A DNA stretch of 64,000 bases from Peptococcaceae bacterium BICA1-7. Its GTDB lineage: Bacteria > Bacillota > Desulfotomaculia > Desulfotomaculales > Desulfocucumaceae. A program made the position numbers and the translations under genes. Of the stretch, positions 7,774 to 22,273 are shown one piece after another. Below the pieces are notes generated by a model that was given only the letters and a program-made list of their open reading frames with translations, did not search any database and was not told the origin of the DNA. The DNA lies in assembly GCA_000802095.1 (NCBI GenBank), contig JUEB01000029.1, forward strand, positions 62,001 to 126,000, in the 5' to 3' direction. Position 1 is the first letter of the stretch. Every line of letters starts with the position of its first letter.

Positions 7774-9552
7774 GTGGCTGAGAGGGTATATATTGATGCC
7801 GATGTCCTGATACTGGGTGGAGGCACCTCGGGATGCATTGCCGCCTGGGAAGCCAGGCAGGCTGGCGGGGATGACCTTAAAATAGTAATCCTGGAGAAAG
7901 CTTTCATCCGCCACAGCGGCTGTCTCTCCGCAGGTATGAACGCTCTGAATATGTATATAAATCAGGGCACCCCGGAGGATTACGTGTCCTATGTCAGGTA
8001 TGACATATGCGGCGCCCCCATTCGTGAGGACATAATACTGTCTGTTGCCGGGGAGGTAAACGACACCGTTAAGTTAATGGAGTCCGCCGGCCTGCCCATG
8101 AAGAAGAAGGAGGACGGGCGGTACCTTAACCGGGGCAAGTGGAATATAGAGGTTAACGGGTCGCTCTTAAAGCCCGTTACCGCCAGCAAAGCTTTTGAAG
8201 CCGGAGCAGAAATATACAACAGAGTTTACATTACCGAGTTGATTATAAAAGACGGGGCCTGTGTGGGAGCTGTAGGGTTTGGTGTCCGGGACGGGAAATT
8301 CTATATCTGCCGTGGGAAGGTCACCCTGCTGTGCACCGGCGGGGCCGCCGGTCTCTGGAGGCCCAATAACCGCAGGGATGCTCACCACAGGATATGGTAC
8401 TTCCCCTTTAACTGTGGCTCTGCCTATGCCATGTGCAAACGGGCCGGCGCTGAGATGACCTCCTTTGAAATGCGCCTGGTTCCCATTAGGACCAAGGATA
8501 CCTTTTCACCCACCGGGACAATGTCCATCGGCATGGGGGCTCCTATGGTGAATGCCCTTGGTGAGGAGTTCATGGAAAAAGACCCTTATTACGTTTCCTG
8601 GGGCGGGCACACTGCGCCGACCCCCATTCGGATGCTTGCCTTTCAGCGGGAGACCCTGGCCCACCGCGGGCCTATTTATCTTGACACCACAAAGGGAGAC
8701 CCCGCCAAGGTTACCGGCCTCAAAGGCCAGTACCTGGATATGAGCCCCTGCATAGTGCTTTACTGGGGCTGCAATGACATTGATCCCTCCAAGGAGCCAA
8801 TAGAGATAGACGGAGGGGACCCTTATCTGGTAGGGGCCCATGCCGGCATGTCCGGCGCATGGACCAAAGGTATTACCCGGGAAACCACCGTGCAGAGGCT
8901 GTATGTGTCCGGAGACGCTCTGGGGGCGGCTCCCAGCAGGTTTATCTCCGGATCCTGGACCTGCGGCAGGATTGCCGCCCGCCACATGGTGAAGGCACTT
9001 AAGGAAAATAACTACCAATTTGCCGATATAGAGGATGACCTTTGTGACACCCTTGAAGATCGCACCTTCGGCCCCCTCAAAAGGTATCAGGAAAAGTCAG
9101 CCGAGGGTTTATGGTCTGACGGGACTCTCATGTCTGGCATCACCCATAAGGACATGGAGTCCAGGATGCAGAAGATAATGGAAGAGTACTGCGGTGGCAG
9201 GACCCACTGGTATTTTGTAAATGAAACCTACCTCGGCATTGCCAGGAAGCAGATCAGTCGCATGAGGCAGGATCAGCTTCAGTACCTGTGCGCCAGGGAC
9301 CTGCATGAGCTGCAGCTGTCCTGGGATGTTATCAACCGCCTGGATGTCTGCCAGCTGGTTATAGAGCATATGAGCTACAGAAAGGAAACACGGTTCCCTG
9401 GGTATGTCAACAGAACCGATTATCCTGAGCCGGACCCGGAATTTGACTGCTTTGTAAACTCGGTGTGGGACCGGAAAACCGATGAGGTAAGATGCTTTAA
9501 GGTGCCATATGAACAGGTTGTACCCGGAGACAGGAAGAAGCAGAGCATATAA
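7774..9552 (+). CDS. AprA-like flavoprotein, divergent APS-reductase alpha paralogue
   Basis: A 592-residue FAD protein of the AprA branch of the succinate dehydrogenase/fumarate reductase family. The Rossmann motif LGGGTSG is at residues 14-20, and His356 in GAHAGMSGAW matches the catalytic-region His of AprA. Against the true AprA of this window (16858 end) it conserves Trp208 and Arg239 but replaces the adenine-clamping WFLL stretch with MSIG (residues 250-253) and a Glu with Arg120. It starts with GTG behind a G-run. The AprB-like and QmoAB-like genes follow, so it likely forms a two-subunit reductase fed by that protein. Substrate unknown; APS, another nucleotide or an unrelated acceptor are possible. 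Fold sure, reaction not. Confidence 0.85.
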   Translation: MAERVYIDADVLILGGGTSGCIAAWEARQAGGDDLKIVILEKAFIRHSGCLSAGMNALNMYINQGTPEDYVSYVRYDICGAPIREDIILSVAGEVNDTVKLMESAGLPMKKKEDGRYLNRGKWNIEVNGSLLKPVTASKAFEAGAEIYNRVYITELIIKDGACVGAVGFGVRDGKFYICRGKVTLLCTGGAAGLWRPNNRRDAHHRIWYFPFNCGSAYAMCKRAGAEMTSFEMRLVPIRTKDTFSPTGTMSIGMGAPMVNALGEEFMEKDPYYVSWGGHTAPTPIRMLAFQRETLAHRGPIYLDTTKGDPAKVTGLKGQYLDMSPCIVLYWGCNDIDPSKEPIEIDGGDPYLVGAHAGMSGAWTKGITRETTVQRLYVSGDALGAAPSRFISGSWTCGRIAARHMVKALKENNYQFADIEDDLCDTLEDRTFGPLKRYQEKSAEGLWSDGTLMSGITHKDMESRMQKIMEEYCGGRTHWYFVNETYLGIARKQISRMRQDQLQYLCARDLHELQLSWDVINRLDVCQLVIEHMSYRKETRFPGYVNRTDYPEPDPEFDCFVNSVWDRKTDEVRCFKVPYEQVVPGDRKKQSI

Positions 9553-9580
9553 CTTCCTTATCCTGATGGTATTAAAGGTC

Positions 9581-9702
9581 GGAATACAGAACTCAGAATC
9601 CAGAATCCAGAATGGCTTGGGTATTCCTCTTCCGCTTCTTTTAAGCGGCTGCTGGTTATGCAAGCAAAACTTCTGAATTCTGAATTCTGTATTCTGAATT
9701 CC
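9581..9702. repeat. CAGAAT-type intergenic inverted repeat
   Basis: Left arm 9581-9612 is built of CAGAATC units, right arm 9671-9702 of TTCTGAATTC units, about 32 bp each, imperfectly complementary, with a small nested hairpin (CCGCTT/AAGCGG) in the loop. It separates the AprA-like and AprB-like genes and could affect their relative expression. Confidence 0.65.
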
Positions 9703-9737
9703 TCAGCTCATTAGCTTGGCCAAGGAGGAATTAAAGT

Positions 9738-10082
9738 ATGCCCCCCAAAGTAGATCCCACCAAGTGCGACGGCTGTCAGGGTGAGAGTGAGCCTCTTTGT
9801 GAGCAGGTGTGCCCCGGCAATCTGATGACTCTGCATAAGGAAACCATGAAGGCCATCATACGGGACAAGTCGGACTGCTGGGACTGTATGACCTGCACCA
9901 AGGCATGTCCCCGCCAGGCCATACAGACTGTACTGCAGTACCAACTGGCCTATTTTCCCGGCAAGCTTATACCTCTGGTGGGCACCAACAGCGTTACATG
10001 GACTTCCATCGATTGTCACGGCAGGGTAGAGAGATTTGTTATGAAGACCCTGGTCAGCGGCGATGATGAAGATGAGGATTAG
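9738..10082 (+). CDS. AprB-like ferredoxin, divergent APS-reductase beta paralogue
   Basis: A 114-residue two-cluster ferredoxin clearly related to AprB: CDGCQG with CEQVCP near the N-terminus and CWDCMTCTKACP at residues 52-63 supply eight cysteines for two [4Fe-4S] clusters. The aligned canonical AprB in this window is 146 residues; this one lacks the last 30 or so and ends in an acidic GDDEDED tail. In AprBA the C-terminal arm of AprB wraps around AprA, so the shorter tail suggests an altered subunit interface (inference). AGGAGG precedes the ATG. It is 17 bp upstream of the QmoAB-like gene, certainly in the same transcript. Confidence 0.87.
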   Translation: MPPKVDPTKCDGCQGESEPLCEQVCPGNLMTLHKETMKAIIRDKSDCWDCMTCTKACPRQAIQTVLQYQLAYFPGKLIPLVGTNSVTWTSIDCHGRVERFVMKTLVSGDDEDED

Positions 10083-12878: not shown

Positions 12879-14054
12879 ATGTCCAAATTAGTACCCCCCC
12901 ATGGTGGGAAATTGACCCCTGTGCTGGCTCCCAAAGAGAAGAGAGCAGAACTGAAAGCCAAAGCTGAATCCCTGCCGGTTATCCGCATGAGCTCCCGGGA
13001 AACCTCCGACTGCTTGATGCTCGGCATGGGTGCATTCTCCCCGCTCACCGGCTTTATGAAAAAAGCCGACTATGAAGGCGTAGTTAATGGTAATCACCTG
13101 GCTAATGGCTTGGCCTGGCCCCTGCCTGTAACCCTGGCAGCAACCAAGGATCAGGCTGCGGCCATCTCCGTCGGGGCTGAAATGGCTCTGGTGGACGATG
13201 AGTCCGGCGAATACGTCGGCATCATCAAAATTGCTGACAAGTACGAATACGACAAGGTAAAAGAGTGCAAAAGCGCTTTCTTTACTGATGACGCAGATCA
13301 CCCCGGCGTTCAGAAAGTTATGTCCCAGGGCGAAGTATATATTGGCGGCGACATCGTAACCTTCTCCGAGCTGGGTTATGATGAGAAATATGCCGGCTAC
13401 TATGCTCATCCTGCACAAACCCGTGAACTGTTTGAGTCCAAAGGCTGGAGCACAGTTTGCGCATTCCAGACCCGTAACCCCCTGCACCGCTCCCACGAGT
13501 TCCTGTGCAAGATCGGTAACGAGGTTTGTGACGGACTGTTCCTGCATCCCATCGTAGGCAAACTGAAGAAGGGTGATATCCCTGCTGAAGTGCGCTTCGA
13601 GTGCTACAAGGCCCACATGGAAAATTATTTCAACCCCAAAACCATTGAAATGCGCGTATATCCGATGGAAATGCGCTATGCAGGCCCGAAAGAGGCAATC
13701 CTGCACGCCATATTCCGTCAAAACTTCGGCTGCAGCCACCTTCTGGTTGGCCGTGACCACGCCGGAGTAGGCAGCTATTATACTGCTTACCAGGCTCAGG
13801 AAATATTTGACGAGTTCAAGCCCGGTGAAATTCTTTGCCAGCCCATTAAAGTTACCTCTTCATACTACTGCAAGAGGTGCGACGGCATGGCCACCGATAA
13901 GACCTGCGCTCACGACCCTTCAGAGCGCGTAAACATCAGCGGCACCAAGGTTCGCGAAATGTTCGGCAGGGGCGAGCTTCCCCCGCTGGAGTTTGGCCGC
14001 AAGGAAGTTCTGGAAATACTGACCCGCTACTACCAGAGTCTCGACAATAAATAA
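12879..14054 (+). CDS. sat: Sulfate adenylyltransferase (dissimilatory)
   Basis: A 391-residue homo-oligomeric ATP sulfurylase that makes APS and pyrophosphate from sulfate and ATP, the first step of sulfate reduction. The catalytic QTRNPLHRSHE is at residues 197-207 and GRDHAGVG at 291-298. A CKRC...C cysteine set near residues 334-346 matches the zinc site of prokaryotic dissimilatory enzymes. AGGAGG lies directly upstream of ATG 12879. Arginine codons are mostly CGC/CGT, unlike most neighbours, pointing to high expression. It is separated from aprBA by about 420 bp with hairpins and a strong promoter. Confidence 0.97.
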   Translation: MSKLVPPHGGKLTPVLAPKEKRAELKAKAESLPVIRMSSRETSDCLMLGMGAFSPLTGFMKKADYEGVVNGNHLANGLAWPLPVTLAATKDQAAAISVGAEMALVDDESGEYVGIIKIADKYEYDKVKECKSAFFTDDADHPGVQKVMSQGEVYIGGDIVTFSELGYDEKYAGYYAHPAQTRELFESKGWSTVCAFQTRNPLHRSHEFLCKIGNEVCDGLFLHPIVGKLKKGDIPAEVRFECYKAHMENYFNPKTIEMRVYPMEMRYAGPKEAILHAIFRQNFGCSHLLVGRDHAGVGSYYTAYQAQEIFDEFKPGEILCQPIKVTSSYYCKRCDGMATDKTCAHDPSERVNISGTKVREMFGRGELPPLEFGRKEVLEILTRYYQSLDNK

Positions 14055-14474: not shown

Positions 14475-14915
14475 ATGCCAACTTTTGTAATGGCCGAAAA
14501 ATGCGATGGCTGCAAAGGTCAAGACAAAACCGCTTGCATGTACGCATGCCCCAACGATCTGATGGTGTTGGACAAGGAAAAAATGAAAGCTTACAACCGT
14601 GACCCCTGGGCCTGCTGGGAATGCCTCTGCTGTGCCAAGGCCTGCCCGCAGCAAGCCATGGACCTGAGCGGTTACAAGGATTTCGTTCCCCTGGGAGCAA
14701 GCTGCACCCCGCTGAGAGGCTCGGAAGACATTATGTGGACCATTAAGTTCCGTAACGGAATGGTCAAGCGCTTCAAGTTCCCCATCCGTACCACTGAAGA
14801 AGGTTCCGCAGTGCCCGATGGCGGATTTGGCGCAGGCAGCGATGACCTCAATTCAGTTGATCTGTACACCGAACCCGCATCTCTGGGATCCGCTGTATGG
14901 TCCTTTAAGAAGTAA
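14475..14915 (+). CDS. aprB: Adenylylsulfate reductase beta subunit
   Basis: A 146-residue iron-sulfur subunit of dissimilatory APS reductase. It begins MPTFVMAEKCDGCKGQ; cysteines in CDGCKG, CMYACP and CWECLCCAKACP bind two [4Fe-4S] clusters that carry electrons to the FAD of AprA. The C-terminal half forms the arm that embraces AprA. AGGAGG precedes the ATG. It is followed 53 bp later by aprA with its own GGAGGAGG, one operon from the promoter at 14378-14406. CGT/CGC arginine usage suggests high expression. Confidence 0.97.
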   Translation: MPTFVMAEKCDGCKGQDKTACMYACPNDLMVLDKEKMKAYNRDPWACWECLCCAKACPQQAMDLSGYKDFVPLGASCTPLRGSEDIMWTIKFRNGMVKRFKFPIRTTEEGSAVPDGGFGAGSDDLNSVDLYTEPASLGSAVWSFKK

Positions 14916-14968: not shown

Positions 14969-16858
14969 ATGCCGATGAACTTTGAAACTGTAGAAGTAAC
15001 TACAGATTTTCTTATCATAGGTGGCGGCATGGCCGCCTGCGGCGCTGCCGTAGAAGCTGCTTACTGGGGAAAGAAACACGGAGTTAAGGTAACTCTGGTT
15101 GACAAGGCTTCCATGGTCCGTTCCGGTGCCGTGGGCATGGGTCTTTCAGCTATCAACCAATACATTGGTGTGTCCAAGGGCAAAAACACCATTGAAGACT
15201 ATATCAAGTACGTTAAATACGACCTGATGGGCGTAGCCCGTGACGACCTCGTCGCCAACATCGCCCGCCACGTTGACAGCACCGTTCACCTCTTCGACAA
15301 ATGGGGCCTGCCCTTCTGGAGAGACGAGAATGGCGACTATGTAAATGAAGGCCGCTGGCAGCTCATGATCAACGGTGAGTCCTACAAGGTTGTTGTTGCA
15401 GAAGCTGCAAAGAACGCCCTGGGAATGGACAACATTTACGAGCGCGTATTCATCATCGAGCCCCTGATGGATGGCGACAAAATTGCCGGCGCTGTAGGTT
15501 TCAGCGTTCGCGAAAACAAATTCTATGTGTTCAAGGCCAAAGCAGTTATGGCTGCCATGGGCGGCGCGGTTGGCGTGTTCAAGCCCCGCTCCACTGGTGA
15601 AGGTCTTGGCCGTTCCTGGTATCCCCCCTTCAGCACCGGTTCATCCGCATACTTTACCATCAAGGCCGGCGCAGAAATGACTTGCCAGGAAGTCCGCTTT
15701 GTTCCCATCCGCTTTAAGGATGCATACGGCCCGGTGGGCGCATGGTTCCTGCTGTTCAAATCCCGCGCCACCAACGCTTTCGGCGAAGAGTACATGGTTA
15801 CCCGCCGTGCAGAGCTGGCCAACTGGGGCAAATATGGCGCTGTGAAGCCGATTCCGGCCAACCTGCGTAACTACCTCGGCATGCTGGACCTGTTCGAAGG
15901 CAAAGGACCCATCTACATGAGAACTGATGAGGCCATTGCCAATATCGCCAAGAAGTACGAAGGCGACGAAAAAGCATTCAAGAAGAAAATGAAAGAACTG
16001 GAAGCCGAAGCTTGGGAAGACTTCCTCGACATGACCATTTCACAGGCTCTGCTGTGGGCAGCTACCAACGTTGAGCCCGAAAAGGGACCTTCCGAGATTG
16101 CTGCTACCGAGCCGTACTTCATCGGTTCACACTCCGGCGCTTCCGGCGCATGGGTATCCGGTCCTGAGGACCTGGCAGGCGGCACCGAGTATTTCTGGGG
16201 CTATGCCAACATGACCACCGTTAAGGGTCTGTTTGCAGCCGGCGATGCTTCCGGCGCATCCAGCCACAAGTTCTCCTCCGGTTCACACGCAGAAGGCCGT
16301 ATTGCTGCCAAGGCTGCCATCAAGTACTGCCTTGACAACCCTGCACAGCCTAACGTTGATGCTGCAACCGTAGAAGCTCTTAAGGCAAAAACCTATGAGC
16401 CGCTGGCAATATACGAGCAGTTCAAAGACTTCACCACCGACCCCGAAGTAAACCCGAACTACATCTATCCCAAGATGTTCATGTTCAGGCTCCAGAAGAT
16501 TATGGACGAGTATGTTGGCGGCGTGTCAGCTAACTTCTCAACCAACGCATCTTCACTGGACCGCGCCACTGTTCTGATGGGCTTCCTGAAAGAAGACTCA
16601 GAGAAACTGGCCGCCAGGAACCTGCACGAGCTGATGAGGGTTTGGGAAAACAAACACAGAATCTGGCAGGCTGAGTCACACATCAGGACAGTTATGTTCC
16701 GTGAAGAGACCAGGTGGCCTGGCTACTACTTCAGGGCTGACTTCCCGAAAATGGACGAAGAGAACTGGCTGTGCTTTGTTAACACCAAGTATGATCCCAA
16801 AACTAACGAGTGGTCCGTATTCAAGCGGCCCGTTCTGAACCTGTTCAACGTTGACTAA
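14969..16858 (+). CDS. aprA: Adenylylsulfate reductase alpha subunit
   Basis: The 629-residue FAD subunit that reduces APS to sulfite and AMP in the cytoplasm. FAD motif IIGGGMAACG at residues 16-25; substrate-channel residues recognisable by comparison with the Archaeoglobus enzyme are Trp217, Arg248, Phe260/Leu261 in GAWFLLF, and His388 in GSHSGASGAW. Length is normal for bacterial AprA. It ends before a strong hairpin, so aprBA is its own unit separate from qmoAB. Arginine codons are nearly all CGC/CGT in the first half, in contrast to the paralogue at 7774-9552. Confidence 0.98.
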   Translation: MPMNFETVEVTTDFLIIGGGMAACGAAVEAAYWGKKHGVKVTLVDKASMVRSGAVGMGLSAINQYIGVSKGKNTIEDYIKYVKYDLMGVARDDLVANIARHVDSTVHLFDKWGLPFWRDENGDYVNEGRWQLMINGESYKVVVAEAAKNALGMDNIYERVFIIEPLMDGDKIAGAVGFSVRENKFYVFKAKAVMAAMGGAVGVFKPRSTGEGLGRSWYPPFSTGSSAYFTIKAGAEMTCQEVRFVPIRFKDAYGPVGAWFLLFKSRATNAFGEEYMVTRRAELANWGKYGAVKPIPANLRNYLGMLDLFEGKGPIYMRTDEAIANIAKKYEGDEKAFKKKMKELEAEAWEDFLDMTISQALLWAATNVEPEKGPSEIAATEPYFIGSHSGASGAWVSGPEDLAGGTEYFWGYANMTTVKGLFAAGDASGASSHKFSSGSHAEGRIAAKAAIKYCLDNPAQPNVDAATVEALKAKTYEPLAIYEQFKDFTTDPEVNPNYIYPKMFMFRLQKIMDEYVGGVSANFSTNASSLDRATVLMGFLKEDSEKLAARNLHELMRVWENKHRIWQAESHIRTVMFREETRWPGYYFRADFPKMDEENWLCFVNTKYDPKTNEWSVFKRPVLNLFNVD

Positions 16859-17074: not shown

Positions 17075-17157
17075 AAAAGGCCAGTTGAATAAAAAGGTAT
17101 GGCTTACAATGGTTGTCTAACGCTCTAACTTCATATATGAATGGAGATATCTTGAAT

Positions 17158-18405
17158 ATGGTTAATAAAAGTATTCTGGTAGTTGGCGGAGGAATAAGCG
17201 GTTTGACTGCTGCCATCGAGGCTGCCGAGGTAGGGTTTGATGTATTCATAGTTGAAAAGAACCCTTACCTGGGTGGTAAGGTGACCCAGATAAATCAGTA
17301 CTTCCCCAAGCTTTGCCCGCCTAACTGCGGCCTGGAGATAAACTTCAGAAGAATAAGAAGCAACCCTGCTGTAAAATTCTTCACCATGGCCGAGGTTGAA
17401 AGTGTTTCCGGGCAGGAGGGGAATTTTGACGTAACGGTAAAAATAAATCCCCGCTATGTAAATGAAAACTGCACTGGCTGCGGGAAATGTGCCGAGGTCT
17501 GCCCCGCTCAAAGGGCTAATGACTTTAACTACGGGCTGGACAAAACAAAGGCGGCTTACCTGCCCCACCAGTTTGCCTTCCCGGTGAAGTATGTCATTGA
17601 CGCCGGCGCCTGTCAGGATGGGTGCAGCAAGTGTGTTGAGGCCTGTCAGTATAATGCTATTGAAAAAGATATGCAGCCAAAGACAATGAAGCTGAATGTC
17701 GGTTCCATCGTCTGGGCAACCGGCTGGAAGCCCTATGATGCCGAAAAACTAAGCTATTATGGCTTTGGCAGATACCCCAATGTTATAACCAACGTTATTA
17801 TGGAGAGGCTGGCGGCCATAAACGGCCCCACCGGGGGTAAGATTGTCCGTCCTTCCGACGGAAAAGAAATTAAGAGCATTGCCTTTGTGCAGTGTGCCGG
17901 ATCCAGGGATGAAAACCACCTGCACGCGTGCTCCAGTGTCTGCTGCATGGCTTCACTGAAGCAGGCCACCTATGTCAGGGAGCAGTATCCTGACGCCAAA
18001 ATCTGTATCTATTATATTGACATCAGGGCACGCGGAAAGCATGAAGACTTCTTTGTCAAGGTGCAGAATGAAGCCAATATCACCCTAATCAAGGGCAAGG
18101 CCGGTGAAATTCAGGAAGACTCTGCCACCGGGCAGCTTGTCATAGTGGCTGAGGACCAGCTTAACCAGGCACTGTCCGAAGAAAAATTCGACATGGTAGT
18201 CCTGGCCACCGGTATGCAGCCTGCCACCGCCGAAACAAAGGTGCCCGCTGAGATGACCTACGATGAGGATGGCTATGTGGCTGCCGGTACACCGGGAATT
18301 TGCGCCGCAGGCTGCACCAAGAAGCCCCAGGATGTAGCCGCCGCGGTTGCTGACGCTACAGCCGCAGCGCTCAGGGCAATTCAATCAGTAAGGGGGCAGA
18401 GCTAA
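17158..18405 (+). CDS. qmoA: Quinone-interacting oxidoreductase subunit QmoA
   Basis: A 415-residue HdrA-like FAD protein with the N-terminal Rossmann motif VVGGGISGL, CPPNCGLE, two [4Fe-4S] motifs in an inserted segment (CTGCGKCAEVCP and CQDGCSKCVEAC), and CAGSRD. QmoA works with QmoB and, in Gram-negative sulfate reducers, membrane QmoC to pass electrons to AprBA. ATG 17158 is chosen because the protein then begins next to the FAD strand; TTG 17152 and TTG 17113 are alternatives. The stop overlaps the qmoB start (TAATG). An earlier terminator at 17039 implies its own promoter, which I could not pick out. Confidence 0.93.
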   Translation: MVNKSILVVGGGISGLTAAIEAAEVGFDVFIVEKNPYLGGKVTQINQYFPKLCPPNCGLEINFRRIRSNPAVKFFTMAEVESVSGQEGNFDVTVKINPRYVNENCTGCGKCAEVCPAQRANDFNYGLDKTKAAYLPHQFAFPVKYVIDAGACQDGCSKCVEACQYNAIEKDMQPKTMKLNVGSIVWATGWKPYDAEKLSYYGFGRYPNVITNVIMERLAAINGPTGGKIVRPSDGKEIKSIAFVQCAGSRDENHLHACSSVCCMASLKQATYVREQYPDAKICIYYIDIRARGKHEDFFVKVQNEANITLIKGKAGEIQEDSATGQLVIVAEDQLNQALSEEKFDMVVLATGMQPATAETKVPAEMTYDEDGYVAAGTPGICAAGCTKKPQDVAAAVADATAAALRAIQSVRGQS

Positions 18406-20633
18406 TGGCTAAGAAAATTGGTGTTTATATTTGTTCGGGGTGCGGCATTGGTGATGCCCTGGACATTGATGCCCTCGCCAAGGTAGCCACAAAGGAGTAC
18501 AAGGTTCCGGTCTGCCAGAAAAACGCCTTTTTCTGTGGTAAGGAAGGCGTGGAAGTAATTAAAAAAGACATCGCGGAGAACGAAGTAACCTATGTTGTAA
18601 TAGCGGGTTGCTCGGGCCGTGTAAACTATGACGTTTTTAATTTCGGCCCCTCGGTGGTGCTGGAAAGGGTCAACCTGCGTGAGCGTGTGGTCTGGACCCA
18701 GGAGCCCGATGATGAGGATACTCAGATGATGGCCGAAGACTATCTGCGCATTACTCTGGCCAAACTTAAAAACCTTGAGCTGCCTGAGGCCTATGTGATT
18801 GAAAACTGCAACAAGAGGGTCATGGTGGTGGGCGGTGGCCTGGCCGGCATGACTTCAGCTGTGGAAGTGGCCAAGGCCGGCTATGAGGTAGTGCTGGTGG
18901 AGAAAGAGGACTCCCTGGGTGGCTGGCTTAAAAGGTCATACAAGATAGCCCCCTTAAACTCCCCCTATACCGATCCCGAAGACACCGGGCTGGAAGCCAG
19001 GGTTAAGGAAATAGAAGGTAATTCCAATATTAAGGTATACACTTCCACAACTATTGAAAAGACAGCCGGGGCTCCCGGAATGTTTGATGTTACTTTAAAG
19101 CAGGGCGGAGGCACTCTTGAGGAGAAGGTGGGGGCCATCATCCTGGCCACCGGCGCCGTTCCCTACGAGCCCTCCAAGCTGGGACATCTGGGCTACGGGG
19201 CGTCCCCCAACGTGGTCACCCAGGCGCAGTTTGAGGAACTGGCCGCCAAGGGCACAATCGCCCGCCCCTCGGACGGCAAGGCTGTACAGAAGGTTGGCTT
19301 TATACAGTGCGCCGGGTCCAGGGATCAGGAGCACCTGCCGTACTGTTCGGCGGCCTGCTGCGTGGAGTCCATCAAACAGGCGCTCTATGTAAAGGGTCAG
19401 AACTCCGAGGCTGCAGTTTACGTTTTCTACAAGGACATTCGCTCCTCCGGCCAGTATGAGCACTTCTACAAGAAGGCCCAGAGCGAGGGAGTAATGTTCA
19501 TTAAGGCTGATGTCACCGGTGTGACCGATGATGGGGGCAATCTCACCATCGAGGCCAATGACCTGCTTATGGGATCTCCCACCATGGCTGATGAATTGGA
19601 CATGGTGGTGCTGGCCAACGGTATGGTTCCCACCACAGCCTTTGAAGATCCGGCATACGGAACCGAGGCCCAGGAAGAGGCCGCCTGCGCGGCAGCAGAT
19701 GCTGCTCCCGTGCCCGCGCCCATCATCAAGTCCAATATTCTTAACCTGGAATACAGGCAGGGTCCGGAGCTGCCCTCTCTCAAGTACGGCTTCCCGGATT
19801 CCCACTTCATCTGCTTCCCTTACGAGACCCGCCGTACCGGCATCTATGCGGCCGGCAGCGTAAGAAGGCCCATGGATATGTCCCAGGCTGTGGGAGACGC
19901 CACCGGCGCCGCCCTGAAGGCCGTCCAGTGCATAGAGATGACAGATAAGGGCGGGGCAGTTCATCCTCGTTCCGGAGATATCTCGTTCCCCGATTTCCAG
20001 CTGAACCGTTGCACCCAGTGCAAGCGCTGCACTGAGGAGTGCCCCTTCGGCGCCATCAACGAGGACGAGAAGGGCAATCCGCTGCCCAACCCCACACGCT
20101 GCAGAAGGTGCGGGACCTGTATGGGAGCCTGCCCGGAGCGTATCATCTCCTTTAAGAACTACTCTGTGCCTATGCTGGGCAATATGCTCAAGTCCATTGA
20201 GGTTCCCGAAGAGGACGAGGAGAAGCCGAGAGTTCTTATATTCGCCTGCGAGAACGACGCCATTCCGGCACTGGACATGGCGGGCATAAACAGGCTTCAG
20301 TACAGTAAGTGGGTCCGCATTATTCCGGTCCGCTGCCTTGGCTCCCTTAACCTTGTATGGATCAATGACGCCATGTCCAAAGGATTTGACGGAGTGCTCC
20401 TAATGGGCTGTAAGCACGGGGACGACTACCAGTGCCACTTCATGAAAGGCAGTGAGCTGGCCGGCATAAGACTGTCCAAGGTTTCCGAGACTCTTGACAG
20501 GCTTGGTCTGGAGTCCGAGAGGGTCTACATGACTGAGGTCAATGTAATGGACTATGACAGGATACCCAAGATAATAAATGAATTCGTGGAGAAGATCGAC
20601 AAGTTCGGTCCCAACCCCATGAAGGGATTCTAG
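18405..20633 (+). CDS. qmoB: Quinone-interacting oxidoreductase subunit QmoB
   Basis: A 742-residue protein: N-terminal HdrA Cys domain (CSGCG, CGKEG, AGCSG), FAD motif VVGGGLAGM near residue 141-149, CAGSRD and CSAACC, a C-terminal two-cluster ferredoxin (CTQCKRCTEECP and CRRCGTCMGACP), then an MvhD-like domain (ACENDA, RCLG, GCKHGD). It partners QmoA and relays electrons between AprBA and the HdrBC module that replaces QmoC here. An Ala/Glu-rich insertion (residues 418-437) lies in the FAD domain region. It overlaps qmoA by one base and is followed by a hairpin before hdrC. Confidence 0.94.
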   Translation: MAKKIGVYICSGCGIGDALDIDALAKVATKEYKVPVCQKNAFFCGKEGVEVIKKDIAENEVTYVVIAGCSGRVNYDVFNFGPSVVLERVNLRERVVWTQEPDDEDTQMMAEDYLRITLAKLKNLELPEAYVIENCNKRVMVVGGGLAGMTSAVEVAKAGYEVVLVEKEDSLGGWLKRSYKIAPLNSPYTDPEDTGLEARVKEIEGNSNIKVYTSTTIEKTAGAPGMFDVTLKQGGGTLEEKVGAIILATGAVPYEPSKLGHLGYGASPNVVTQAQFEELAAKGTIARPSDGKAVQKVGFIQCAGSRDQEHLPYCSAACCVESIKQALYVKGQNSEAAVYVFYKDIRSSGQYEHFYKKAQSEGVMFIKADVTGVTDDGGNLTIEANDLLMGSPTMADELDMVVLANGMVPTTAFEDPAYGTEAQEEAACAAADAAPVPAPIIKSNILNLEYRQGPELPSLKYGFPDSHFICFPYETRRTGIYAAGSVRRPMDMSQAVGDATGAALKAVQCIEMTDKGGAVHPRSGDISFPDFQLNRCTQCKRCTEECPFGAINEDEKGNPLPNPTRCRRCGTCMGACPERIISFKNYSVPMLGNMLKSIEVPEEDEEKPRVLIFACENDAIPALDMAGINRLQYSKWVRIIPVRCLGSLNLVWINDAMSKGFDGVLLMGCKHGDDYQCHFMKGSELAGIRLSKVSETLDRLGLESERVYMTEVNVMDYDRIPKIINEFVEKIDKFGPNPMKGF

Positions 20634-20665
20634 TGTTAGCAATATAAAATAGGATATGGGATGAG

Positions 20666-20696
20666 GGACGGCCTAGCGGCCGTCCTGACTCCTTTT
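20666..20696 (+). terminator. Hairpin between qmoB and hdrC
   Basis: GGACGGCC and GGCCGTCC around a TAGC loop, then CCTTTTT ten bases later. Weak or leaky terminator; it may lower hdrCB expression relative to qmoAB. Confidence 0.55.
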
Positions 20697-20789
20697 TGGA
20701 ATAATGAACGGACGTTCAGCGATGGCCAGACATTAAAATAATGTAAAAGAGAGTTTAAAAAAACATTTTGGCCAAAGGAGCATGAAAAT

Positions 20790-21392
20790 ATGACGGGTTT
20801 TAATGTTTCCTCTGGGCCGTTGAAGTACGATACCGAATTCGCCAGGGAGATCTACTCCCTGGAAAACGGCCACCATATTAAAAAATGCATGCAGTGCGGG
20901 ATGTGCGAGGTGTCCTGCGCCACCAGAAAAGAGATGGACTACTCCCCCCGCAAGATGTTTCTCCTTTTGAGGACCGGGCAGAGAGAAGAGTTCTTCAAGT
21001 CAAATACCATGTGGATGTGCAGCACATGCCTGATGTGCAAGGTCCGCTGCCCCAGGGGAGTACCTATTGTAGACGTTATGCACGACCTGAAGTGCTACGC
21101 CATCAGCAAAGGCTACACTGAAAGGGCCCAGGCCGCTTTCTACCAGTCTTTCTGGAAGGAAATATGGAGCCGGGGCAAGCAGTTCGAGGGCGGTCTTATG
21201 GCCAGGTATTACCTTAAGCGGGGCTGGAAAGATATCAGGAAAGATGCCTTTAGAATGAAAGACATGGGTTTGACAATGTTGAAGCATGGACGGATGCCCT
21301 TAATGCCTCCCAAGAGCGTCAAGGGTCTGAAGGACGTGCAGAAGCTGGTGGAAGTGGCCAAGGCCCAGCTGCAGAAAGGGGCGGATAGGTAA
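20790..21392 (+). CDS. hdrC: Heterodisulfide-reductase-type subunit C
   Basis: A 200-residue soluble iron-sulfur protein. CMQCGMCEVSC at residues 33-43 and CSTCLMCKVRCP near 76-87 bind two [4Fe-4S] clusters, as in methanogen HdrC. In Gram-positive sulfate reducers hdrBC stand in place of qmoC after qmoAB, which is exactly the order here. It should connect QmoAB with HdrB. Ribosome binding site AAAGGAG precedes ATG 20790. Its stop overlaps the hdrB start by the ATGA-type junction at 21392. Confidence 0.92.
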   Translation: MTGFNVSSGPLKYDTEFAREIYSLENGHHIKKCMQCGMCEVSCATRKEMDYSPRKMFLLLRTGQREEFFKSNTMWMCSTCLMCKVRCPRGVPIVDVMHDLKCYAISKGYTERAQAAFYQSFWKEIWSRGKQFEGGLMARYYLKRGWKDIRKDAFRMKDMGLTMLKHGRMPLMPPKSVKGLKDVQKLVEVAKAQLQKGADR

Positions 21393-22273
21393 TGAAGTAC
21401 AGCTTTTATCCCGGCTGTTCCATGGAAGCAACGGCTGTCCCGTACCTAAAATCCTTTGAGGCCGTTGCTCATGCACTGGGTATAGAATTGAAAGAGATTC
21501 CCGACTGGAACTGTTGCGGGGCCACTGTTGCCTCAGGAGTAATAGGGGACTATCCGGCCCAGGTAATGACTTCCCGTAATCTGGCTCTGGCTGAGCCTCA
21601 TGGCGCGGACATTGTTGTGCCCTGCAGCTCATGTTACATGAACCTGGCCATTACCAACCGCAAGTTTAAGGAAGACGGGCATTTCCGCCAGATGGCCGAT
21701 GAGGCTCTGGCCTCGGTGGGAATGAAGTACGGCGGCTCTCTTAATGTAAGGCAGATTATTGATGTCATGGTCAACGATGTGGGTCTTGACACAATTAAGT
21801 CCAAGGTCAAAAAGCCTCTTACCGGGCTTAGGGTGGCAGGCTATGTGGGCTGCCAGACCCCAAGGGTTTTCCCCTGGGAATTTGACGACCCGGAACAGCC
21901 TGTATTTTTTGACAAAATTATTGAGGCACTGGGCGCCACCCCGGTGAAGTTCCCCGTGAAGGCCCGCTGCTGCGGCAGCTCTCACTCGGTGGCCCAGCCT
22001 GAAATAACAGCTGACTCGTGCTATAACATCATAACCTCGGCCCAGGACGACCAGGCTCATTTAATAGCCGCGGTATGCCCCATGTGTCAGCTTAATCTGG
22101 ATGCCTATCAGGACCTGGTAAAGGAGCGCCATAAATTAAAAACCTCTATGCCGGTGCTGTTCTTTACCCAGCTTATGGCCATTGCCATGGACCTGCCGCC
22201 GGACGCCTGGGCGCTGAAACATAATATAGTGTCGCCCTTCACGGCTCTGGCAAAATTTGGGGTAGGTAAATAA
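21392..22273 (+). CDS. hdrB: Heterodisulfide-reductase-type subunit B
   Basis: A 293-residue protein with two complete CCG domains: the first has Cys9, NCCG near residue 41 and CSSC near 79; the second has CQTP, CCGS and CPMC. In HdrB each CCG domain binds an unusual non-cubane [4Fe-4S] cluster and acts on a heterodisulfide; here the partner thiol/disulfide or quinone is unknown. All ligand motifs are intact. It is the last gene of the hdrCB pair and is followed by hairpins at 22303-22339 and 22391-22415. Confidence 0.92.
   Translation: MKYSFYPGCSMEATAVPYLKSFEAVAHALGIELKEIPDWNCCGATVASGVIGDYPAQVMTSRNLALAEPHGADIVVPCSSCYMNLAITNRKFKEDGHFRQMADEALASVGMKYGGSLNVRQIIDVMVNDVGLDTIKSKVKKPLTGLRVAGYVGCQTPRVFPWEFDDPEQPVFFDKIIEALGATPVKFPVKARCCGSSHSVAQPEITADSCYNIITSAQDDQAHLIAAVCPMCQLNLDAYQDLVKERHKLKTSMPVLFFTQLMAIAMDLPPDAWALKHNIVSPFTALAKFGVGK

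Follow-up and report, generated by a model that had tools for sequence, protein, structure and literature searches.

AprA is in use as a marker for dissimilatory sulfate reduction. In the enzyme of Archaeoglobus fulgidus, the adenine of the substrate is clamped between Arg317 and Leu278, the channel is lined by Phe277 and Trp144, the sulfate is contacted by Asn74, Trp234, Arg265 and His398, and Glu141 and Asp361 work via waters (PMC2211403). For another member of the family, MtPAPSR of Methanothermococcus thermolithotrophicus (PDB 8a8o), reduction of PAPS has been shown biochemically, a specificity that its authors tied to Arg121 and Ser122 (PMC10322725). AprA-like paralogues to which no function has been assigned are also known (PMC7174415; NCBIfam NF005331/PRK06854). 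In the order Desulfotomaculales, canonical AprBA usually works with the products of qmoA, qmoB, hdrC-like and hdrB-like genes, arranged as in PMC4148979.

Here we compare with these systems a locus of Peptococcaceae bacterium BICA1-7 (family Desulfocucumaceae), located in a window of 64,000 nucleotides (the whole stretch of DNA that was analysed), where a second gene of the AprA family, aprA2, lies upstream of a canonical sat-aprB-aprA-qmoA-qmoB-hdrC-hdrB run (Table 1). AprA2 scored 440.4 bits with TIGR02061, below its cut-off of 641.75 bits (911.6 for the canonical AprA of the window), and with 555.2 bits missed the cut-off of NF005331 (PRK06854; 557 bits) by 1.8. By sequence, its nearest solved relative is 8a8o_A (E 2e-134), followed by 1jnr_A. 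The AF2 model (pLDDT 89, pTM 0.91; without FAD or ligand and least sure at residues 202–211, around Trp208) gave the same order, with Z 55.9 over 554 residues for 8a8o_A (rmsd 1.9), Z 50 for 1jnr/2fja and 42 for fumarate reductases.

Table 1. Features of the aprA2 locus and its surroundings, with positions in the window. Residues in brackets without further mention are those of A. fulgidus AprA.
Feature	Position	Strand	Basis
aprA2, FAD-binding AprA-family paralogue, 592 aa, GTG start	7774–9552	+	PF00890, NF005331, TIGR02061 matches
Asn59 codon (Asn74, kept)	7948–7950	+	family alignment
RGKWN motif codons, Arg120-Gly-Lys122-Trp123-Asn124 (E141 G Q143 W144 Q145)	8131–8145	+	alignment; R120, G121, K122, W123, N124 invariant in clade
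Arg120 codon	8131–8133	+	
Trp208 codon (Trp234, kept)	8395–8397	+	alignment
Arg239 codon (Arg265, kept)	8488–8490	+	alignment
MSIG 250–253 codons (WFL(L/F) 276–279; Ile252 at clamp residue Leu278)	8521–8532	+	alignment
Arg286 codon (Arg317, adenine clamp, kept)	8629–8631	+	alignment
Gln319 codon (Asp361, acidic, near sulfate in APS reductase)	8728–8730	+	alignment; A. fulgidus role from PMC2211403
His356 codon (His398; kept here, Asn in two Desulforudis-type orthologues)	8839–8841	+	alignment
Ser388 codon (His446; Lys in MtPAPSR)	8935–8937	+	alignment
Dispersed repeat, imperfect palindrome, aprA2/aprB2 intergenic	9560–9715	.	94 matches across the genome; strong predicted RNA hairpin (fold z -5.2)
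aprB2, AprB-like subunit, two [4Fe-4S], 114 aa, without C-terminal APS-reductase_C tail, acidic end DDEDED	9738–10082	+	
hdrAx, HdrA-type flavoprotein fused to FlpD/MvhD, QmoA/QmoB-like, 793 aa	10100–12481	+	
sat, ATP sulfurylase	12879–14054	+	PF01747 match
aprB, canonical APS reductase beta subunit	14475–14915	+	
aprA, canonical APS reductase alpha subunit, comparison protein (E127, WFLL 259–262)	14969–16858	+	
qmoA, qmoB, hdrC-like, hdrB-like genes	17113–22273	+	own sequence and gene order

Orthologues of AprA2 (61–95% identity) occur in 22 genomes from five families of a single order of sulfate-reducing Firmicutes, the Desulfotomaculales, and among 398 genomes drawn evenly from the phylum no AprA2 match above 51% identity was obtained outside that order. 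The carriers named by a GTDB contig scan include Desulfocucumis, Desulfovirgula, Desulforudis and Ammonifex. In a quick tree of 82 proteins, calculated with the pocket columns included, the AprA2 sequences form a single clade with an SH-aLRT of 100; canonical AprA, the clade of MtPAPSR and two other groups, AprA3 and AprA4 (the latter with a support of 55 only), are separate from it. No paper on the AprA2 clade was found in the literature searched, in which subscription journals are mostly not covered. Like the paralogues of PMC7174415, AprA2 belongs to the AprA family and lacks AprA-typical residues, but it differs from them in being a defined clade of sulfate reducers that is linked to aprBA and sat: canonical aprBA is syntenic with aprA2 in seven genomes of the Desulfocucumaceae and in most of the Desulforudis family. 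Linkage to aprBA extends to two families and linkage to sat to one.

In the alignment of 82 AprA-type proteins, among them MtPAPSR and the A. fulgidus enzyme, the residue pairs written down in the initial annotation were all borne out: R239, W208, H356 and R120 of AprA2 correspond to R265, W234, H398 and E141 of A. fulgidus, and M250-S251-I252-G253 to W276-F277-L278-F/L279. The alignment is free of gaps between the KD..P.G and NA.GEE motifs, so MSIG truly occupies the place of WFLL, and an altered pocket that is only an alignment artefact was ruled out. The interval 8470–8880 to which the change had been assigned holds R239, MSIG and H356, but the codons of Arg120 and Trp208 lie outside it. 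As to the packing on the adenine that had been ascribed to WFLL, in A. fulgidus Leu278 is part of the clamp and Phe277 lines the channel, but Trp276 and residue 279 are not listed as contacts (PMC2211403). The remaining counterparts are R286 for Arg317, W123 for Trp144, N59 for Asn74 and Q319 for Asp361. The catalytic N74, W234, R265 and H398 are all kept in AprA2, and the set formed by these residues and R317 was not found complete in any of the non-AprA flavoprotein relatives compared (L131–L134). His398 is the residue proposed to protonate sulfite; it is replaced by Asn in two Desulforudis-type orthologues of AprA2, one of them from a closed genome.

Arg286 and Ile252 are present in 22/22 orthologues. 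The adenine clamp of AprA2, an arginine with a beta-branched aliphatic residue, is therefore conservatively changed and not lost; as to whether another loop supplies the clamp, which had also been asked, the alignment indicates that Ile252 comes from the same position. Beyond the changes listed initially we found Asp361→Gln319, His446→Ser388 and Gln145→Asn124, which are fixed in the clade, and Val273→Thr247, which is not. The channel wall V273-G274-A-W-F277-L278 thus reads T-G-T-M-S-I in AprA2 and departs from the canonical one. Across all 22 orthologues R120, K122, W123, N124, I252, G253, Q319 and S388 are fixed, and the first two letters of MSIG vary (M/L, S/A). Five of 17 compared contact positions are altered in character (E141R, F277S, D361Q, H446S, V273T). 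Identity at these positions with A. fulgidus AprA (9/17) was not significantly higher than the background of 227/571 (p 0.19), and contact-residue identity was dropped as a test of APS function. The main novelty of the pocket lies on the sulfate side, where both acidic residues are gone, and at positions 145 (Asn124) and 446 (Ser388).

The altered pocket is real and selected: because these residues are fixed in 22 orthologues and the dN/dS of aprA2 is 0.056–0.058, the changes are not noise, and aprA2 is under strong purifying selection. For aprB2 the ratio is 0.014–0.03, the lower value resting on saturated dS. These figures and the conservation rule out a pseudogene. They also largely refute the notion that AprA2B2 is a decaying or redundant duplicate with no specific role, since the genes are intact in 22 genomes of five families with a fixed pocket; although the loss of His398 in the two Desulforudis-type orthologues and the repeat element between aprA2 and aprB2 of our window would fit such a duplicate, we find it hardly credible.

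The initial annotation had taken the loss of WFLL and of the Glu as arguing for a substrate other than APS or a different binding mode. The pocket of AprA2 indeed differs, to judge from the alignment, and its binding mode is probably different from that of canonical AprA. A substrate other than APS, however, does not follow from the two changes, because MtPAPSR shares both of them, several sulfate reducers of the order have a canonical AprA with Gly in place of Glu141, the clamp is present as Arg286/Ile252 and N74, W234, R265, R317 and H398 are kept. The Gly in genuine canonical AprA means that loss of Glu141 alone proves little. The replacement of Glu by Arg and of WFLL by (M/L/I)(S/A)x-G is common to all non-canonical AprA clades; in MtPAPSR, the segment RYVARGK holds the Arg and SPTGTIAQG stands in place of the WFL segment. 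PAPS is a close analogue of APS with the same adenylyl-phosphosulfate end, and both changes are thus compatible with adenylyl-phosphosulfate reduction. On these grounds we would sooner see in AprA2 an unstudied relative whose substrate is still of the adenosine-sulfate type than take its pocket as proof of a new substrate.

With a probability of about 0.5, we consider AprA2-AprB2 a putative second AprBA-type adenylylsulfate oxidoreductase, a distinct and old subfamily that would interconvert APS (or a close adenylyl-sulfate with a 3'-hydroxyl) with AMP and sulfite. The reaction would run through an N5-FAD-sulfite adduct in AprA2, with APS/AMP as the presumed nucleotide, and the more basic sulfate side of the pocket (E141R, D361Q) may shift affinity, redox poise or preferred direction and not the substrate. 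In the family of the window, electrons would pass via HdrAx (HdrA-FlpD) instead of QmoAB, with HdrAx possibly docking on the acidic tail of AprB2. Our results support the APS/AMP reading by the fold, the catalytic set N59/W208/R239/H356, the clamp R286/I252 and the cysteines and tryptophan of AprB2; further support comes from the existence of the clade, purifying selection, linkage to aprBA and sat, the lack of PAPS-type residues and the 10/16 genomes without APS kinase discussed below. AprA2B2 resembles canonical AprBA (A. fulgidus 1jnr/2fja and that of the window) in its catalytic residues, in the pairing of R317 with a hydrophobic partner, in the two [4Fe-4S] clusters and transfer tryptophan of AprB and, here, in its place beside sat, aprBA and qmo. 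It differs in an identity of AprA2 to canonical AprA of only ~38%, in E141R, D361Q, Q145N, H446S and F277S, in an AprB2 that lacks the APS-reductase_C tail and in the adjoining HdrAx. Counting against the APS reading are the 9/17 contact identity, the five altered positions and His398→Asn in the two Desulforudis-type orthologues. Sat was found in 22/22 AprA2 genomes; APS is available in these hosts, but all appear to reduce sulfate and would carry Sat anyway.

The nearest relative by sequence and fold being MtPAPSR, AprA2B2 might be a PAPS reductase of the same kind, and the two share E141R, V273T, A275T, a small residue for F277 (Ala in MtPAPSR), L279G and a short AprB without C-terminal tail, whereas D361 is Ala in MtPAPSR. 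Arg141 and Lys143 are also common to both, but the canonical AprA of the window has Arg (R129) at position 143, so that Lys120 of MtPAPSR does not discriminate and Lys122 of AprA2 is not PAPS-specific. Besides Arg121 and Ser122, our alignment shows Gln250 and Lys376 co-varying in MtPAPSR, which goes beyond the proposal of PMC10322725. None of the corresponding PAPS-type states (W144R, Q145S, L278Q, H446K) occurs in AprA2, which has W123, N124, I252 and S388 and thereby retains Trp144 and a hydrophobic residue at 278. The two proteins fall into separate clades (support 100), and AprA2 has no APS kinase requirement and stands outside an assimilation operon. APS kinase was found in 8/8 genomes with MtPAPSR-type enzymes, its gene adjoining the reductase genes in two loci (L046, L127), but was not found in 10/16 AprA2 genomes with a completeness of 90% or more, a closed genome being among the ten; compared with the seven MtPAPSR-type genomes of at least 90% completeness this gives a Fisher p of 0.007, absences resting on completeness estimates. 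The genome of the window does encode an APS kinase, on a different contig. Of the four AprA2-genome neighbourhoods that were read, however, three have the kinase in the company of glycosyltransferase and sulfotransferase-like genes, which were identified by eye from the beginnings of their sequences. Because PAPS-type residues are absent, Trp144 is kept and ten genomes of at least 90% completeness lack APS kinase, PAPS is an unlikely substrate of AprA2, the pocket, tree and kinase distribution all arguing against it, and we regard a PAPS reductase of the MtPAPSR kind as very improbable.

A substrate other than APS, as had been suggested initially, be it another adenylylated compound or oxyanion or an unrelated anion, deserves more weight, although we still consider it rather unlikely. 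The basic sulfate side, where both acidic residues are replaced (R120, Q319) and His446 is Ser, would suit a leaving group of more negative charge; all 22 orthologues have this pocket fixed, and it is unlike every characterised one; His398 is lost in the two Desulforudis-type orthologues; and the AprA family evidently diversifies, since AprA3 adjoins a Na+:anion symporter and its genomes yielded no sulfate-activating enzymes. Yet MtPAPSR, a proven sulfonucleotide reductase, has the same sulfate-side changes (PMC10322725), AprA2 keeps the adenine clamp and catalytic set, sat and aprBA adjoin its genes in the family of the window, and no gene of the neighbourhood points to another substrate. Another adenylylated substrate of AprA2B2 is therefore possible in view of Glu141→Arg, Asp361→Gln and the Desulforudis His398→Asn, but the odds are against it. 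We are a little more doubtful still of the fuller version, in which AprA2B2 would be a putative flavin/iron-sulfur oxidoreductase of an adenylylated (or other) substrate that is neither APS nor PAPS, with its own HdrA-FlpD partner in one family. If true, there would be sulfate reducers that, in addition to reducing sulfate, carry out a second AMP-linked redox reaction which has so far gone unrecognised.

A further point against the APS reading comes from AprA3, which has the catalytic set of AprA2 although Sat, CysD and APS kinase went undetected in genomes that carry it; possession of the set is therefore no proof that APS is the substrate. The AprA3 clade (contig C33 of the genome of the window, L039:6188-10430, and 25 further rows) is marked by D145, D274, W261 and mostly Q232 and has its own AprB; HdrA/HdrC-like genes adjoin it in several genomes, and where the neighbourhood was read it also contains a Crp regulator and an anion symporter of the Na_sulph_symp type. 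Since Sat, CysD and APS kinase were not detected in six AprA3-carrying genomes (five at least 99% complete), its substrate may be neither APS nor PAPS. The pocket nearest to that of AprA2 is found in AprA4 (12/17 contact residues). AprA4, observed in seven loci of Firmicutes, has RGRWN and Tyr/Phe446. Of its genomes 6/7 have Sat but only 2/7 an APS kinase, which we count in favour of the APS reading of AprA2; AprA4 itself is a candidate for an assimilatory APS reductase with the AprA fold. The family divides into five groups or more, each with a pocket signature of its own that is fixed (canonical, MtPAPSR, AprA2, AprA3 and AprA4), which makes the switch between APS and PAPS, and possible moves to other substrates, directly testable by mutation. 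Where AprA serves as a marker, a paralogue whose pocket differs can wrongly be counted as an APS reductase.

AprB2 keeps the eight cluster cysteines and the CWDC (transfer) tryptophan; the tail (PF12139) that it lacks is present in the canonical AprB of the window. An acidic C-terminal patch (DDEDED, EEE; window 10036–10082) occurs in AprA2-type AprB only, is less acidic in one of them (L082) and was not seen in the AprB of other non-canonical clades; it is a possible docking site. The role of HdrAx as the electron partner of AprA2B2 is inferred from gene position. Its residues 144–519 are QmoA-like (41%) and its C-terminal half is QmoB-like with FlpD, so that it resembles QmoAB and methanogen HdrA (5odc) in its flavin domain and C-terminal clusters, but it is a single chain beside AprA2B2 with no HdrBC adjoining. 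HdrAx evolves faster (53–86% identity). Against this route counts that hdrAx directly follows aprB2 in the Desulfocucumaceae only and is not beside aprA2 outside that family. We gave up the idea that HdrAx has a hydrogen-linked role in every carrier, since one of them, BRH_c4a, has been described as living heterotrophically in situ (PMC5067608). Should HdrA-FlpD indeed feed AprA2B2, an APS-level redox step that bypasses Qmo would exist in some sulfate reducers.

A soluble acceptor such as HdrA-FlpD would also be plausible for a dedicated sulfite-oxidising, APS-forming isoform, serving sulfite detoxification or sulfur disproportionation and passing its electrons to HdrAx or to a different soluble acceptor. 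AprBA can run in either direction, and a reverse Sat-AprAB route has been proposed for disproportionation (PMC10504309). No residue or gene context examined separates the two directions, however, and Meyer and Kuever describe a highly conserved active-site channel for canonical AprBA, whether reductive or oxidative (PMC2211403). We consider such a dedicated isoform improbable.

Finally, in the Desulforudis and Ammonifex families, though not in the window, a conserved moeA-moeA-moaC-(mogA)-lgt run precedes aprA2-aprB2 (L062, L070, L071); we record this flanking by moeA, moaC and mogA as an observation only and not as a link to the molybdenum cofactor.
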